Assembly (NCBI GenBank): GCA_014859305.1
Contig: JACUUM010000016.1
Coordinates: forward strand, 1-41,799
Length of the DNA: 41,799 nt
Source: Coriobacteriia bacterium
GTDB lineage: Bacteria; Actinomycetota; Coriobacteriia; Anaerosomatales; Kmv31
Direction of reading: 5' to 3'
Made by a program: the position numbers and the translations under genes. Below, in pieces: positions 7,691 to 13,758 of the stretch. Positions within the stretch are counted from its first letter, which is position 1; every line of letters begins with the position of its first letter. The notes beneath the pieces were generated by a model. The model was given only the letters and a program-made list of their open reading frames with translations, searched no databases and was not told the DNA's origin.

Positions 7691-8071
7691 GGAGAAGGTG
7701 GTAAGAAGCGCCTGGTATGTGGTAACATACGACTTTGTGCATCACTGAGCGCCTCGTGTGCGTTCGGCCGCCAGGAGACCGGGGGCGGCCGAGGACCGGC
7801 GCAGCGGGGCGACGACTCCCGGTCAGGACGCAGCCGCCGACACACGCTCTCCGAGCCGCTTGCGGCAGGGGTGGGAAGCCGGTGACGCGGCCCCCCGAGA
7901 TCACGGTCACGCCGAACCGCATACTCGCTCTTCGGCACGACGGCTCCCGCCGTCGCCGGTGATGCGAGGCAGCCACGGTTCCATCCGCACCCGTTCCATC
8001 TCCTGCTCTCCGCTGTCTTGTGCCGCGCGCGTCGGTCGCCGTCGGTCCTGTAACCGGACGTGGAGGTGTGC
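7691..8071 (+). other. Long untranslated leader/intergenic region before rlpA-like gene
   Basis: About 380 nt separate the hairpin after UPF0182 from the RlpA-like start. No coding frame here is credible. The only AT-rich stretch, at 7711-7740, is the best place for a promoter. If transcription begins there the leader would be over 300 nt long, with several GC-rich potential stems. RlpA-like and other wall-hydrolase genes of Gram-positive bacteria are often controlled by c-di-AMP (ydaO) riboswitches, but I could not match the conserved core of that aptamer. A structured regulatory RNA is therefore only a possibility. Confidence 0.3.
7715..7730. repeat. Inverted repeat GTATGT-N4-ACATAC
   Basis: The perfect 6-bp arms GTATGT and ACATAC flank GGTA inside the only AT-rich patch of this gap. 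The site could be an operator overlapping the promoter of the RlpA-like gene; no regulator is identified. Confidence 0.4.
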
Positions 8072-8671
8072 GTGCGCACCGTTTCGGACCTGTTCGACGT
8101 CGCGAGGCCCGGTCGCCTGCAACGGGCGTTCGCGGCCACCCCGGCCGTCCTCCTGGCCGCCGCTTTGGCGGTGGGCGTGCTGCCCGCTCAGGGGCGGGCG
8201 GCTCCGCCGGCGAGACGCACGTTCGCCTCGCTGGCCCTCTCGACGGCGTTCTCCGTACCCGACCTGGCACCGGGCACCTCGGCGGAGGCTCAGCCGCTCC
8301 CCAAGCGGCTCGTCGCCCCCAGGGCGCTCCCGCCCAGGGCCGCAGCGCCTGGTGTGGGCTCCCGTCTCGCTTCGCGCGGCCGCGCCGGCGGTTGGTCCAC
8401 CGCGACGGTCTCCTGGTACGGCCCGGGCTTCTACGGGAAGACGATGGCCGGCGGCGGTACCCTGCGGCGGGACAGCATGGTGGTCGCGCACCGCTCGCTG
8501 CCGTTCGGTACCCGCGTCATGTTCGAGTACCGTGGCCGGACCGCCGTCGCGGTCGTCCGGGACCGCGGTCCCTACGCCGGGGGCAGGACGTTCGACCTGG
8601 GCCCGGGGACGGCCCGGGCGCTCGGATTCAGCGGCGTGGGGCGGGTCCGCTACCGCGTCCTGGGCCGCTGA
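8072..8671 (+). CDS. RlpA-like double-psi beta-barrel protein
   Basis: RlpA proteins act outside the membrane on peptidoglycan (some are lytic transglycosylases on denuded glycan strands). The product of about 199 aa begins with a membrane segment or signal peptide (ATPAVLLAAALAVGVLPAQG), a proline/alanine-rich linker, then the RlpA/DPBB domain in the last 90 residues: TATVSWYGPGFYGKTMAGGG, VAHRSLPFGTRVMFEY, VVRDRGPYAGGRTFDLGPG and ARALGFSGVGRVRYRVL. The Asp of RDRGPY and the FDL segment match the conserved active-site region. GTG at 8072 is chosen because GGAGG (8062-8066) lies 5 nt upstream; GTG at 8060 or 8066 is possible. A long leader precedes it. Whether it cleaves or only binds glycan is unknown. 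Confidence 0.87.
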   Translation: MRTVSDLFDVARPGRLQRAFAATPAVLLAAALAVGVLPAQGRAAPPARRTFASLALSTAFSVPDLAPGTSAEAQPLPKRLVAPRALPPRAAAPGVGSRLASRGRAGGWSTATVSWYGPGFYGKTMAGGGTLRRDSMVVAHRSLPFGTRVMFEYRGRTAVAVVRDRGPYAGGRTFDLGPGTARALGFSGVGRVRYRVLGR

Positions 8672-8816: not shown

Positions 8817-9158
8817 ATGGAGCGCGGGAACGACGTCGTCGAGCGGTGGAGCGAGCTCGTCGACTCCGTGGTCTCGCTCTTCGAGACGGCCGTCGCATGG
8901 TTCCAGCAGCAAGTCGAGGCGACCGTGCGCGACAAGGTGGCCAAGCCGCTCGTCGTCGCCGTGGTCGTCGCGCTCTCCGGCGGTGCCGCGCTCGCGTCCT
9001 TCACGTTCACATCGGTGGCACTCGTGCTCGTCGGCCTGTCGTGGGCGCTGGGCTACGTCGTGGGGCCGGCCTACGGCGCGCTCATCGTCGGCCTGGTCTT
9101 CGTGCTCGGGTCGGTCGGCGTGGTCTACGCCGTGGTGAGGACGGTGAGGTCGCGGTGA
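8817..9158 (+). CDS. Small two-helix membrane protein, holin-X-like
   Basis: This 113-aa protein has an amphipathic N-terminal third (residues 1-40) followed by two strongly hydrophobic segments (PLVVAVVVALSGGAALASF and YGALIVGLVFVLGSVGVVYA), with a third, weaker one between them. It ends in a basic tail (VRTVRSR). The layout resembles the Actinobacterial Holin-X / DUF1469 group of small stress-associated membrane proteins, but the match is by architecture only. ATG at 8817 is preferred to the upstream in-frame ATG at 8733 because GGGGAGAGG stands just in front of it and the intervening residues are Arg-rich junk-like. The stop overlaps the next start (GTGA). It is likely co-expressed with the next two small genes. 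Confidence 0.68.
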   Translation: MERGNDVVERWSELVDSVVSLFETAVAWFQQQVEATVRDKVAKPLVVAVVVALSGGAALASFTFTSVALVLVGLSWALGYVVGPAYGALIVGLVFVLGSVGVVYAVVRTVRSR

Positions 9159-9349
9159 AGCCGGATCTCTCGGCGGTGACGCTCGACGACGTCCGCAGGC
9201 GCGGGCGGCTGGTGGGCGAGCGTGCGGGGGACCTCGCGAGAGCCGTCGCGGAGACCCCTGCCGCCAGGCGTGCCGGCGTTGCCGCCGGCGTGCTCGCCGC
9301 AGCGGTCAGTACCGGCTACCTGCTCGGTTCTCGCCGCCGAAGGTCGTGA
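9155..9349 (+). CDS. Small basic single-pass protein of unknown function
   Basis: This is a 64-aa product. It begins MKPDLSAVTLDDVRRRGRLV, continues with a charged helix, and ends in one hydrophobic segment (AGVAAGVLAAAVSTGYLLG) and an Arg-rich tail (SRRRRS), suggesting an inner-membrane anchor with the positive end inside. The GTG start overlaps the upstream stop in a GTGA junction, which is the main evidence that this short frame is translated. Small helix-anchor proteins of this kind often accompany holin-X-like proteins in actinobacterial operons, as in DUF3618-type genes, but sequence similarity to that family is not evident. The next gene starts 4 nt after its stop. Confidence 0.6.
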   Translation: MKPDLSAVTLDDVRRRGRLVGERAGDLARAVAETPAARRAGVAAGVLAAAVSTGYLLGSRRRRS

Positions 9350-9353
9350 GCGG

Positions 9354-9827
9354 GTGCCCGAGGACGTCCCCCGGCCGCTGACCGTCCTGGAAGTGACGGT
9401 GACCGGGCAGCGCGCCGAGGCGCTCGTCGAGGTCCGTCCCGACGCCGCGCGCACCGGCGCGTTCCCCTCCTTCACGGCCAACCTGCTGCTGGCGCTGCCG
9501 GGCCTGGCCTCGCACGAGTGTCACAACGGGAGGGGGCGGACCTTCATCGAGGAGCTGCGCGACACCGAGACCGCTCATGCGTTCGAGCACGTCGCGCTGC
9601 AACTGATGCGGCTCGCCGGCTCCCCGGCGACCGGCGAGACGACCTGGGACTTCCAGCGAGACGGGCGAGGCCGGTACCGCGTGGCGCTCCGATTCGAGGA
9701 CGACCTGCTGTGCTTCGGCGCGTTGCGCCTTGCGGAGCAGGTGATCGCCGCGGCCGCCGGCGAGGGCGAGATGCACGTGCTCGTCGACGAGGTGGCACGG
9801 TTGCGCGGTCTCGCCGGCCAGGGGTAG
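9354..9827 (+). CDS. Stand-alone cyanophycin-synthetase N-domain-like protein
   Basis: This 157-aa soluble protein has a core that resembles the N-terminal domain of cyanophycin synthetase (CphA). Landmarks are LLLALPGLASHECHNGRGRT, FIEELRDTETAHAFEHVALQ, LMRLAGS, then YRVALRFEDDLLCFGALRLA. These correspond to the CphA pattern 'LPGL..H.C', 'GGF..RL..GT...HV.EHVALELQ' and the following 'Y.VV.EY.de..g..A...A' strand-helix. No ATP-grasp or Mur-ligase domain follows, so it cannot make polymer by itself. In CphA this domain contributes to polymer handling, so a binding or editing role for a related peptide is an inference. Start: GTG at 9354, 4 nt after the preceding gene, no strong ribosome site. 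It is the last gene of a three-gene cluster. Confidence 0.68.
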   Translation: MPEDVPRPLTVLEVTVTGQRAEALVEVRPDAARTGAFPSFTANLLLALPGLASHECHNGRGRTFIEELRDTETAHAFEHVALQLMRLAGSPATGETTWDFQRDGRGRYRVALRFEDDLLCFGALRLAEQVIAAAAGEGEMHVLVDEVARLRGLAGQG

Positions 9828-9926: not shown

Positions 9927-10190
9927 CAACCAGCCTCGAAGGCTGGGCATACAGCCAGCATGGACGTGAGGGAAGAGGGCGCCATCAGCCCGGCCACCCC
10001 TCCCAGGTCCCCCGCCAGGGTCGAGCCGGAGAGGCGCGGCCGGAAGCGGGACGGCGCCGGACCGTTACCGCACCGGCCATGAGGCTCCCCCGAGGGCCGG
10101 TTCCAGCGCTGGGCCGGTCTCGCCCGGGAGCGAAGATAGGTGGTACCGCGACGGCCCCTCGCCCTATCAGGCAGGGGTCGTTCTGTTTCT
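9927..10190 (+). promoter_or_regulatory. T-box leader (tRNA-sensing riboswitch) with terminator
   Basis: The T-box sequence AGGTGGTACCGCGA (10138-10151) matches the conserved antiterminator bulge that pairs with the tRNA acceptor end. It runs straight into an intrinsic terminator: a stem using GACGGCCCCT (10150-10159) and AGGGGTCGTT (10173-10182), then the U-rich TTCTGTTTCT. Upstream, CCGTTACCG and CATGAGG around 10058-10084 look like the stem III region. T-boxes let uncharged tRNA switch on amino-acid genes. The specifier codon is not assigned: a small hairpin at 9968-10002 exposes a loop CGCCATCAG with possible GCC (Ala) or ATC (Ile) triplets, but a canonical stem I could not be drawn with confidence. 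Confidence 0.85.
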
Positions 10191-10231: not shown

Positions 10232-11494
10232 ATGGGCACCTCGAGGGTCGTCTTCGACCGATGGGAAGGGCGGTACGCGTCGCGCATGGGCGACATCCGC
10301 TCCTCGGCCGTGAGGGACCTCTTCGCCGCCGCCTCGCGCCCGGACGTCATCTCCTTCTCGGGTGGCATGCCCGAGGTCCGCAAGGTACCCGGCGACGCGG
10401 TCGCGGGTGCCGTGGCCGCCGCGATGCGCGAGGACGGGGCCCAGGCGCTGCAGTACGGCTCCTCGGAAGGGCGGCCGGCGCTCCGGCGGCTGATCTCGCA
10501 GCTGATGGGCGAGACCGGCGTGCGCGTCTCGCCCGAGGACGTCGTCGTGACCGCGGGCGCCCAGCAGGGCCTCGACCTGCTGGCCAAGACGTTCCTGGAC
10601 CCCGGTGACGTCGTGCTGACCGAGGGGCCCACCTACGTCGGCGCGCTGCAGGCGTTCTCGGCGTGCCAGCCCGAGGTGCGGTGCGTGCCGATGGACGACG
10701 AGGGCATGCGGATGGACCTCCTCGCCGAGGAGCTCGATCGTCTCGGGCCGCGCGGCGCCAAGTTCGTCTACACCATCCCGAACTTCCAGAACCCGGCCGG
10801 CGTCACGATGTCGGCGCCGCGCCGCCGCCGGCTCCTGGAGCTCGCGCGCGAGTACGACGTCGTGGTCGTGGAGGACGACCCCTACGGGCGGTTGCGCTTC
10901 GAGGGCGGGCACCTGCTGCCGCTGCGCGCCCTGGACGAGGACGTGGTCTACCTCGGCACGTTCAGCAAGATCTTCGCGCCGGGGCTGCGGCTGGGCTGGA
11001 TGGCGGCACCCCGTCCGATACTCGCCAAGGTGCTGCTCACCAAGCAGGCCGCCGACCTGTGCGGGTCGGCCTTCGCGCAGACCGCGGCGGAGCGCTACTT
11101 CCTCGGCTCGAGGTGGCGCAGGACGCTGCGCGACCTCACGGACACGTACCGCGCGCGGCGCGACGCGATGCTGGCGGCGCTGGCGGAGCACTTCCCTCCC
11201 GAGGCCCGATGGACCCACCCCGAAGGCGGCTTCTTCGTGTGGGCGACCCTGCCCGAGTTCCTGGACACCACGTCGCTTCTGGCCGAGGCGGTCGAGCACG
11301 GCGTGACCTTCGTCCCGGGAGACGGCTTCTTCCCGGACGGCCGAGGACGCAACAGCATGCGTCTGGCCTTCTGCTACGCTGAGCCGGACCGCATCGAGGA
11401 GGGCATCCGGCGCTTGGCCGAGGTGCTGGAGGACCGCTTGGAGCTGTACCGGGCGTTCATGTCGGCCGGGGCGCTGACCCCCGCGACGGGGTAG
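10232..11494 (+). CDS. PLP-dependent class I/II aminotransferase (LysN/2-aminoadipate type)
   Basis: This 420-aa fold-type I aminotransferase belongs to the MocR-related, stand-alone COG1167 group that includes LysN and aromatic or 2-aminoadipate transaminases. Landmarks: ISFSGGMPEVRKVP near the N-terminus, LQYGSSEGRPALRRLI, VVVTAGAQQGLDLLAKTFLD, YTIPNFQNPAGVTMS (substrate and PLP contacts), EDDPYGRLRFEG, and GTFSKIFAPGLRLGWM, where the Lys forms the Schiff base. There is no N-terminal HTH. ATG at 10232 is chosen because GGAGG is 5 nt upstream. It is the first gene behind a T-box leader, so its expression should respond to an uncharged tRNA. ddl follows after 35 nt in the same direction. The substrate is not determined; control by a T-box suggests amino-acid synthesis rather than breakdown. 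Confidence 0.87.
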   Translation: MGTSRVVFDRWEGRYASRMGDIRSSAVRDLFAAASRPDVISFSGGMPEVRKVPGDAVAGAVAAAMREDGAQALQYGSSEGRPALRRLISQLMGETGVRVSPEDVVVTAGAQQGLDLLAKTFLDPGDVVLTEGPTYVGALQAFSACQPEVRCVPMDDEGMRMDLLAEELDRLGPRGAKFVYTIPNFQNPAGVTMSAPRRRRLLELAREYDVVVVEDDPYGRLRFEGGHLLPLRALDEDVVYLGTFSKIFAPGLRLGWMAAPRPILAKVLLTKQAADLCGSAFAQTAAERYFLGSRWRRTLRDLTDTYRARRDAMLAALAEHFPPEARWTHPEGGFFVWATLPEFLDTTSLLAEAVEHGVTFVPGDGFFPDGRGRNSMRLAFCYAEPDRIEEGIRRLAEVLEDRLELYRAFMSAGALTPATG

Positions 11495-11529: not shown

Positions 11530-12480
11530 GTGAAGGAGAAGATAGCGGTCCTCATGGGCGGGCGCTCGCTGGAGCGCGAGGTGTCGCTGGCCAGCGGCAG
11601 GCGCGTCGTGGCCGCGCTCACGGAGATGGGCCACAAGACGCTCGCGCTGGACGTGACGGCGGACCTGGTCGACACGCTGCGCTCGGAGCGCCCGGACGTC
11701 GTCTACATCGCCCTGCACGGCAAGTACGGCGAGGACGGGACGATCCAGGAGATCCTCGAGTTCCTCGACATCCCGTACACGGGGCCGGGCGTGACGGCCT
11801 CGGCGCTCGCCTGGGACAAGACGCTCTCCAAGCGCCTCTTCGCCCAGAACGGCATCCCGACGCCCCCCTGGGTGGCCTTCACGACCGCCGCGTTCAAGGA
11901 GATGGGAGCGGCCACGGCGCTGGATCTCGTGCCCGAGGCGGTCGGGGGTCTTCCGGTGGTGGTCAAGCCGGCGGAGCAGGGCTCGGCCCTCGGTCTGACC
12001 AGGGTCGCTGCGCCCGAGGACCTTCCCCAGGCGCTGCTGTCCGCGTTGTCCTACGGCGACAAGGCGCTGGTGGAGAAGTGGGTCGAAGGCGCGGAGCTCG
12101 CCGTGTCGGTCGTCGGCGGGACAGAGGATCGCCGCGTGCTGCCGCCGGTGGAGATAGAGGCGCACTCCGGCCTCTTCGACTTCACGGCGATGTACACGCC
12201 CGGCGAGACCGACTACTTCGTGCCGGCACGGCTGCCGGAGCCCGTGCTCGCCACCGTCGAGGAGCTGGCGCTGTCGGTGCAGCGCCTGCTCGGCTGCCGC
12301 GACGTGTGCCGCGTGGACATGGTGGTCGACCGCGAGGGGCGGCCCTGGGTGCTGGAGTGCAACACCTCTCCGGGCATGACGGAGACGTCGCTGCTCCCCA
12401 TGGCCGCCGAGGCCGCCGGCATCGGTTTCGGGGAGCTCGTGGAGCTCATGGTCCGGGCCGCGGCCGATAGGATAAAGTAG
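11530..12480 (+). CDS. ddl: D-alanine--D-alanine ligase
   Basis: Ddl joins two D-alanines with ATP to give the dipeptide used by MurF for peptidoglycan precursors. The 316-aa ATP-grasp protein shows all the family marks: VLMGGRSLEREVSLASGR (substrate loop), LHGKYGEDGTIQ, GPGVTASALAWDKTLSKRLF, VVVKPAEQGSALGLTRV (ATP-grasp lid), MYTPGETDYFVPA and WVLECNTSPGMTETSLLPMA (metal and D-Ala2 site). The length is normal for the family. GTG start with a purine-rich GAGGGGGCGG just upstream. It lies 35 nt behind the T-box-controlled aminotransferase with no terminator seen between, so it is probably under the same leader. That would link precursor synthesis to an amino-acid supply signal. Confidence 0.93.
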   Translation: MKEKIAVLMGGRSLEREVSLASGRRVVAALTEMGHKTLALDVTADLVDTLRSERPDVVYIALHGKYGEDGTIQEILEFLDIPYTGPGVTASALAWDKTLSKRLFAQNGIPTPPWVAFTTAAFKEMGAATALDLVPEAVGGLPVVVKPAEQGSALGLTRVAAPEDLPQALLSALSYGDKALVEKWVEGAELAVSVVGGTEDRRVLPPVEIEAHSGLFDFTAMYTPGETDYFVPARLPEPVLATVEELALSVQRLLGCRDVCRVDMVVDREGRPWVLECNTSPGMTETSLLPMAAEAAGIGFGELVELMVRAAADRIK

Positions 12481-12507: not shown

Positions 12508-12549
12508 TGGATCAAGGATCGTCCGACCGCGATGCGGAGGTGTTCGCGT

Positions 12550-12984
12550 ATGTACGACGACTACGGCAGGCGCGGAGGGAGCGTCTTCGGCGCCTTCCTC
12601 CTCGGCGGACTCGTCGGGGCCGTTCTCGGGCTGCTCTTCTCGCCGCGCTCCGGCAAGGAGAACCGGGAGCTCGTCGCGGCCAGGGCGCAGGAGTACTGGG
12701 ACCAGGGCCGGGAGATGTACGACACCGGACGCGAGCGGGCCGGCGACATCTACGAGAGCGGGCGCGAGACCGCGGCGGTCAAGACCGAGGAGCTCAAGAC
12801 CCGAATCGACGAGGCACGCGACCGCCTGAAGGAGCAGGTCGCCACGGCCAGCCGGTCGGCGAAGTCGGCGGTGTCGCGCGCCGGCTCCAAGACCGAGGAG
12901 GCCGTCGAGGCGGGCGCGGAGAGCGCGCAAGAGAAGCTGGACATCGTCCAGGAGAAGGCCGAGGAGGGCGGCAAGCCCTCGTAA
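12550..12984 (+). CDS. YtxH-domain general stress protein
   Basis: The 144-aa protein starts with a short polar stretch (MYDDYGRRGGS), one glycine-rich membrane helix (FGAFLLGGLVGAVLGLLFSP) followed by RSGKENR, the classic YtxH signature, and then ~100 residues of highly charged, heptad-like helix (EELKTRIDEARDRLKEQVAT and similar) likely to form a coiled coil on the cytoplasmic side. YtxH proteins are stress-induced in Bacillus, but their mechanism is unknown. ATG at 12550 is preferred to the upstream GTG/ATG because GGAGG (12536-12540) lies 9 nt before it. A strong hairpin terminator follows 26 nt after the stop. Confidence 0.82.
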   Translation: MYDDYGRRGGSVFGAFLLGGLVGAVLGLLFSPRSGKENRELVAARAQEYWDQGREMYDTGRERAGDIYESGRETAAVKTEELKTRIDEARDRLKEQVATASRSAKSAVSRAGSKTEEAVEAGAESAQEKLDIVQEKAEEGGKPS

Positions 12985-13038: not shown

Positions 13039-13056
13039 TTCGTGTGGAGGCGGCGG

Positions 13057-13758
13057 ATGCCCCGGTTGTCGGAGATGGAAGGCGCGCCCGTGCGTGACGT
13101 GCGCGGCCGGAGGGCCGGGCGGGTCGCGCACGTGCTGTTCCACGCCTACGAGCCGCGTCCCGTGGGGATCGAGCTCGAGCGTCCGCGGCTGCTGTACGTG
13201 GTGCCCCGGCCGCCGGCGTACGTGCCTGTGACCGCGCTGGCGGTGGAGGGCGGCGAGTTTCGGCTCACCCGCGCGGTCCCGTCGCGCGCCGCCGGCGAGC
13301 GCGAGATCGGCCACACCTGGGACGACAGCGTCATCTGGCGCGGGATGCCGGCACGGTCGTCCTCGGGCGGCCGCCTCGGCGTGGTCCGCGACGCGCGGCT
13401 GTCCGTCAAGACTGCGAGACTCGTCGAGGTCGAGCTCACCGAAGGGACCGTGGCCGACGCGGCCGTGGGGCGGCGGACCGTCGCGGCGGAGAACGTGGAG
13501 GGCTTCGACGGCTCCGCCGTGGTCGTCACGCAGACGGCGACGGAGGAGGGTGTCCCCGGCGGCCTCGCCGCCAGGGCGGGGACCGGCGCCGCGTACGCCA
13601 AGGTCGGCGCGGAGCAGCTCGCGTCCAAGGCGGCGGTCTCCGCGGCGGCGGCGGCGCGGCTGGTGCGCCGCTCCGAGGCCGGGCGCAGAGCCGGGCGGTT
13701 CCTCGGCGCGCTGAAGAAGTCGGTGCTTGACGCGATGCGCGACGACGAAGAAGAGTAG
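13057..13758 (+). CDS. PRC-barrel domain protein
   Basis: The 233-aa protein begins with a PRC-barrel-like beta domain (MPRLSEMEGAPVRDVRGRRA, GRVAHVLFHAYEPRPVGIEL) and appears to hold a second copy in the middle (GGRLGVVRDARLSVKTARLV, with a following VGRRTVAAENVEGFDGSAVV). The C-terminal third is Ala- and Lys/Arg-rich helix with no clear transmembrane span (KAAVSAAAAARLVRRSEAGR). PRC barrels are small ligand- or RNA-binding modules, known from RimM and the photosynthetic reaction centre H subunit. ATG at 13057 is taken because GGAGG (13046-13050) lies 6 nt before it; GTG at 13042 would use the ribosome site as codons. The molecular role is unknown. It may belong with the YtxH gene as an envelope-stress or sorting pair. 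Confidence 0.65.
   Translation: MPRLSEMEGAPVRDVRGRRAGRVAHVLFHAYEPRPVGIELERPRLLYVVPRPPAYVPVTALAVEGGEFRLTRAVPSRAAGEREIGHTWDDSVIWRGMPARSSSGGRLGVVRDARLSVKTARLVEVELTEGTVADAAVGRRTVAAENVEGFDGSAVVVTQTATEEGVPGGLAARAGTGAAYAKVGAEQLASKAAVSAAAAARLVRRSEAGRRAGRFLGALKKSVLDAMRDDEEE

Follow-up and report, generated by a model that had tools for sequence, protein, structure and literature searches.

A free-standing relative of the cyanophycin synthetase N-terminal domain, with a conserved putative metallopeptidase site, in Coriobacteriia

A small gene cluster around the target

The window analyzed here is a 41,799-nucleotide stretch of DNA from a member of the Coriobacteriia. On its forward strand, positions 9354–9827 hold the target, an open reading frame that starts with GTG, stops with TAG, and encodes a 157-aa protein for which no signal peptide is evident by eye. 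Four motifs are found in this protein (LPGL, residues 48–51; HEC, 54–56; EHVALQ, 78–83; LRFEDD, 112–117), as is an HxCx18HxxEH site composed of H54, C56, H75, E78, and H79. The sole domain encoded resembles the N-terminal domain of cyanophycin synthetase (CphA). As the original prediction had it, no ATP-grasp or Mur-ligase part follows: the frame ends at 9827, and the next gene on the same strand (10232–11494) encodes a class I/II aminotransferase (PF00155, 119.5 bits) that is syntenic in part of the class. Further downstream, also on the forward strand, are genes for a D-Ala-D-Ala ligase, an ATP-grasp enzyme that does not belong to a CphA (11530–12480; PF07478, 177 bits), a YtxH-domain protein (12532–12984; PF12732, 64 bits), and a PRC-barrel protein (13042–13758; PF05239, 33 bits). 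Upstream of the aminotransferase gene, positions 10138–10190 contain a GTGGTACCGCG stretch and, after it, a GC hairpin and Ts, which together resemble the end of a T-box. A search against Rfam returned nothing, even at E values up to 1.

Two small forward-strand genes precede the target. The first (8817–9158) encodes a small membrane protein resembling the holin-X family PF07332 (E 4.5e-4), and its score of 20.7 bits lies below the cut-off of 28.4; a relative at another locus (L042) passes that cut-off with 30.6 bits. The second (9155–9349) overlaps the stop of the first by 4 nt and encodes a 64-aa protein that ends in LGSRR and has one apparent membrane helix by eye. In 25 of 43 loci, the window included, a similar frame immediately precedes the target, according to an ad hoc test of the end motif from whose 26 script matches one evident false match (L126) was removed; the relative at L110 has no Pfam family. 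These relatives indicate that both small upstream proteins, which had been part of the original prediction, are real. The GTG of the target begins five bases past the end of the 64-aa frame, and the layout of the three genes looks like that of a translationally coupled trio. An RlpA-like double-psi beta-barrel protein, also syntenic, is encoded farther upstream on the same strand (8060–8671; PF03330, 41.5 bits).

Family membership and predicted fold

The target had been proposed, from the order of its four motifs, to be related to the CphA N-terminal domain. All four motifs are present, and a Pfam search returned a single match, to PF18921 (Cyanophycin synthase-like N-terminal domain), at 53.3 bits (E 3.1e-14), well above the gathering cut-off of 27. 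The '-like' in the name of this family suggests that its curators were aware of members outside CphA. Matches to the two CphA models of NCBIfam were confined to the N-terminal 150 positions and scored far under the whole-protein cut-offs. When the single sequence was searched against the PDB, three cyanophycin synthetase sequences were the sole matches with E below 0.1 (best 1.7e-5); a cystatin followed at the chance level of E 0.62. A profile of 55 stand-alone homologues retrieved the same three cyanophycin synthetases alone at E of 1 or lower, with a best value of 1.1e-17. Given the PF18921 E value, the PDB matches, and the occurrence of homologues in hundreds of genomes, this open reading frame is not a chance one.

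An AlphaFold2 model of the target built from 55 sequences (pLDDT 94.0, pTM 0.90) gave eight PDB matches at E of 0.001 or lower in Foldseek, all of them CphA1 chains. VIA-align, applied to chains picked by Foldseek, superposed the model on the N domain of SuCphA1 in its E82Q complex (PDB 7txv; see also 7lg5) with a Z-score of 20.3 and a deviation of 2.0 A over 145 residues at 26% identity. The predicted fold is therefore that of the CphA1 N domain, as had been anticipated. The N domain of CphA2 (PDB 7ta5, 8fxh, 8fxi) shares this fold more distantly (Z about 13), and among entries other than CphA enzymes Z did not exceed 7.2; rows at or below this value were treated as background. Taken with the Pfam match and the sequence comparison against the PDB, the predicted fold supports membership of the target in the CphA N-domain family.

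The structural search also bears on whether the protein might instead use a Cys-His-His site to act on a small molecule, as a hydrolase or lyase other than a peptidase. LuxS has an HxxEH-type His-His-Cys metal site, and LuxS chains were the first PDB entries listed by Foldseek after the cyanophycin synthetases. This resemblance is very weak: the TM-scores of 0.22–0.26 (probability 0.12–0.20) are at noise level, and all the strong matches are CphA. We therefore regard a small-molecule enzyme as quite improbable.

A putative metal site and its conservation

In 2022 the N domain of CphA1 was described as a peptidase whose site lies cryptically within a polymerase (PMC9262961). According to that paper, many CphA1 N domains are cryptic zinc metallopeptidases that bear the motif Cx19HxxEH and cut cyanophycin into primers. 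In SuCphA1 the metal ligands are given there as C59, H79, and H83, with E82 as general base and H57 and E87 in the second shell, and cleavage of cyanophycin is called slow. The same paper states that N domains also bind the polymer non-catalytically, that certain CphA1 N domains are without the site, and that CphA2 is without the active-site motif (PMC9262961), which the target has.

In the PDB-search alignment, C59, H79, H83, E82, H57, and E87 of SuCphA1 correspond to C56, H75, H79, E78, H54, and Q83 of the target. The motif is thus kept with a spacing of 18 instead of 19 before HxxEH, and its four residues all align. The original prediction had listed HEC and EH, and both are present; it had not recognized that they form part of the site at which a known metallopeptidase binds its metal. 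Beyond the Cys, the two His, the Glu, and the second-shell His, the target and the CphA1 N domain have in common an invariant Pro49 and Thr96 and a conserved Gly94. The two differ in that the target is free-standing, has the shorter spacing, and carries a replacement at a polymer contact of SuCphA1, R70, which corresponds to E67. At this position all 20 CphAs sampled have R, and the stand-alone proteins mostly have E or V. Judged by alignment, then, the target retains the catalytic residues but not the R70 substrate contact.

An HxxEH motif on a helix, as found in the target, is also characteristic of the M16 'inverzincin' peptidases, such as pitrilysin and insulin-degrading enzyme. No M16 match to the target was obtained with Pfam at E values up to 1. 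As described in PMC9262961, M16 enzymes run to about 1000 aa, compared with the 157 aa of the target, and take their third ligand from a downstream acidic residue or His, whereas the candidate third ligand here is an upstream Cys, C56.

Conservation was assessed in 55 distinct, aligned stand-alone sequences that had been gathered through the Pfam profile or by genomic place, with no motif pattern involved. C56, H75, E78, and H79 are each present in 55 of 55, and H54 in 54 (a looser regular expression for HxC gave 53/55; the aligned count is used here). Only eight of 121 well-filled columns have at most one exception (P49, H54, C56, H75, E78, H79, G94, and T96), and the probability that the four named residues would all fall among them is about 8e-6 if columns are exchangeable, a value to be taken as a guide only, given the relatedness of the sequences and the bias of profile searches toward the consensus. 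All 20 full CphAs sampled likewise have the Cys, both His, and the Glu. A further set of 80 related loci was chosen by a pattern containing HxxEH, so that conservation of HxxEH in it is circular and was left uncounted; Cys and HxC, neither of which belonged to the selecting pattern, occur in 80/80 and 78/80. Two Armatimonadota metagenome-assembled genomes (MAGs; L119 and L123) have QxC in place of HxC. In a low-GC genome outside the class (G744), a 183-aa PF18921 protein (L069, 51.8 bits) keeps the C and HxxEH with a spacing of 20, and a Gln replaces the second-shell His.

Such a site could also serve folding, or the binding of a peptide tail, in a protein that holds a metal and acts as an adaptor or sensor without catalysis. 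The non-catalytic polymer binding and the siteless CphA1 N domains described in PMC9262961 are in line with this view, as is the variability of second-shell position 83 (43 E, 10 D, 1 G, and, in the target, the only Q among the 55). For E78, however, no structural reason for invariance is evident, and yet all 55 sequences have it. An adaptor or sensor role is therefore unlikely in our judgment, though it deserves to be kept in mind. Q83, which takes the place of second-shell E87, also counts against a peptidase reading, as does the change from R70 to E67; a Q at the equivalent position is found in 30% of the 20 CphAs.

Distribution, gene order, and proposed function

The 2.13-Mb genome (98% complete, 76 contigs) contains a single PF18921 match, the target gene itself. 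A search of the whole genome for CphA with TIGR02068 reached no more than 72 bits (cut-off 850), and the sub-cut-off loci read as Mur ligases and ATP-grasp enzymes. For cyanophycinase (TIGR02069), the best score genome-wide was 21.5 bits against a cut-off of 126.6; at 98% completeness, a cyanophycinase gene could have been missed in a gap. The check for CphA elsewhere in the genome, suggested with the original prediction, thus found none above the cut-offs, a further difference from the CphA1 N domain. A CphA split over two genes was also considered and rejected: TIGR02068 found only those sub-cut-off Mur-ligase and ATP-grasp loci, and the downstream D-Ala-D-Ala ligase is a standard one by Pfam. 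In Olsenella and Collinsella-type loci, the D-Ala-D-Ala ligase gene lies away from the target.

The family's own profile matched 186 of 197 Coriobacteriia genomes, including 165 of the 170 of good quality (completeness of 90% or more, contamination of 5% or less), and each matching genome has one copy except G091, with two matches. The target family is a core gene of Coriobacteriia. The original prediction was right about a free domain and missed this class-wide status. PF18921 itself matched 332 of 396 class genomes, with a best E value anywhere in the class of 1.9e-17, compared with about 1e-33 to 1e-43 for full CphAs elsewhere in the phylum. Because the family profile also recognizes CphA N domains (20/20 tested), a second copy of CphA type in the class would probably have been seen; neither the PF18921 nor the family-profile survey detected a CphA-type match among the class members covered. 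In a sample of 396 genomes from the phylum, PF18921 matched 56, of which 32 belong to the class (the target's genome included) and 22 others have CphA-like scores; 20 of these 22 matches lie in open frames of at least 900 aa, one in a frame of 235 aa, and one in a frame with an internal stop. The remaining two, G675 and G744, lie outside the class and have stand-alone matches. Stand-alone homologues also occur at seven loci from Armatimonadota MAGs (L114, L116, L119, L123, L124, L125, and L129).

A tree of N domains (128 rows and 139 columns, with L069, L130, and duplicates left out before the combined alignment) grouped the 20 CphAs, all from one phylum, together (100/100), their branch being 1.74 changes per column long. 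Eight Armatimonadota-type rows, L122 included, form another group (100/100 in the group table). As long branches meet in this unrooted tree, only the separateness of the sampled CphAs was used; it argues against recent, repeated fission from these CphAs and does not indicate which form is older. These results also bear on whether the target is a decaying fragment of a lost CphA, as the absence of the other two CphA domains might suggest. Presence in 186 of the 197 genomes of the class, a conserved order of genes, the invariant site, and the separate, long-branched CphA group all speak against this, and distribution, gene order, and site conservation lead us to reject a CphA fragment or pseudogene. 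A phage origin was likewise rejected: the one weak viral-contig match (L160, 36% over 47 residues) has no open reading frame found by the family profile.

Gene order was compared with clusters named from Pfam results on representatives, and eight loci (the seven from Armatimonadota and L122) were left out of the counts. Within the target's own taxonomic order (probably Anaerosomatales), UPF0182, RlpA-like, holin-like, and small membrane protein genes typically precede the target, and aminotransferase, D-Ala-D-Ala ligase, YtxH, PRC-barrel, GNAT, and polysaccharide deacetylase genes follow it. In more distant class members (Olsenella, Thermophilibacter, Collinsella, and relatives), the arrangement is CNNM/CorC, target, YtxH, PRC-barrel; YtxH lies directly 3' of the target there, and in most of these loci no more than about 90 bases separate the end of the target from the beginning of the YtxH match. 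Where 4.5 kb or more of downstream sequence was available (55 class loci), YtxH and PRC-barrel genes follow on the same strand in 45 and not in the other 10; where 1.5 kb or more of upstream sequence was available (67 class loci), RlpA, holin-like, or CorC genes precede the target in 66. None of the target-adjacent neighbors common to the class was seen in the seven Armatimonadota loci; at L119, the homologue is followed by an opposite-strand gene for a Poly_export/SLBB polysaccharide export protein. The neighbors suggest a job at the cell envelope, gene order being weak evidence of function.

By sequence comparison, the target belongs to a branch of the CphA N-domain peptidase family that is free-standing, spans the class, and has an intact site. 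We propose, with a probability of about 0.6, that it is a small cytoplasmic zinc endopeptidase of the Cys-His-His type whose substrate is something other than cyanophycin. C56, H75, and H79 would hold zinc or another divalent metal, E78 would act as general base, and H54 would sit in the second shell. By the chemistry of the primer-making endo-cyanophycinase of CphA, the enzyme would then cut a peptide or isopeptide bond in a substrate that may be supplied near the membrane. Because the cutting site is kept although CphA is absent, a peptidase with another target is probable, and a different substrate is suggested by the changed polymer-contacting residues and the lack of detected cyanophycin genes. 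Since cleavage by SuCphA1 is itself slow, activity of the target could be weak or nil.

Could cyanophycin made elsewhere, or imported, nevertheless be the substrate? The fold and catalytic residues are the same as those of SuCphA1, which cuts cyanophycin. Against a true endo-cyanophycinase stand a genome with no CphA or cyanophycinase above cut-off, the altered polymer-contact positions, and near-universality in the class beside envelope genes, which does not point to a scavenging gene; we give this explanation little credence. A non-cyanophycin endopeptidase would instead represent, as we infer, a new use of the CphA-N fold.

A broader possibility, advanced tentatively and with more doubt than confidence, is a new metallopeptidase family, stand-alone and core to Coriobacteriia, with a rare Cys-His-His site, that would work at the envelope with a holin-like or CNNM/CorC-type membrane protein, YtxH, and PRC-barrel proteins and cut a dedicated non-cyanophycin peptide or polymer. 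If so, an older peptidase family would have the CphA N domain as one of its branches, recruited into a polymerase. We found no paper on a stand-alone CphA N domain in the open-licence PMC literature. The cryptic site of CphA1 is now found free, conserved, and near-universal in a class that includes Collinsella and Olsenella, which makes the target a candidate for a new family of peptidases and offers a lead on the origin of the CphA N domain. Olsenella and Collinsella-type members (L047, L048, L051–L055, and L070) carry long, acidic, low-complexity C-terminal tails, which, speculatively, might be regulatory or even substrate.
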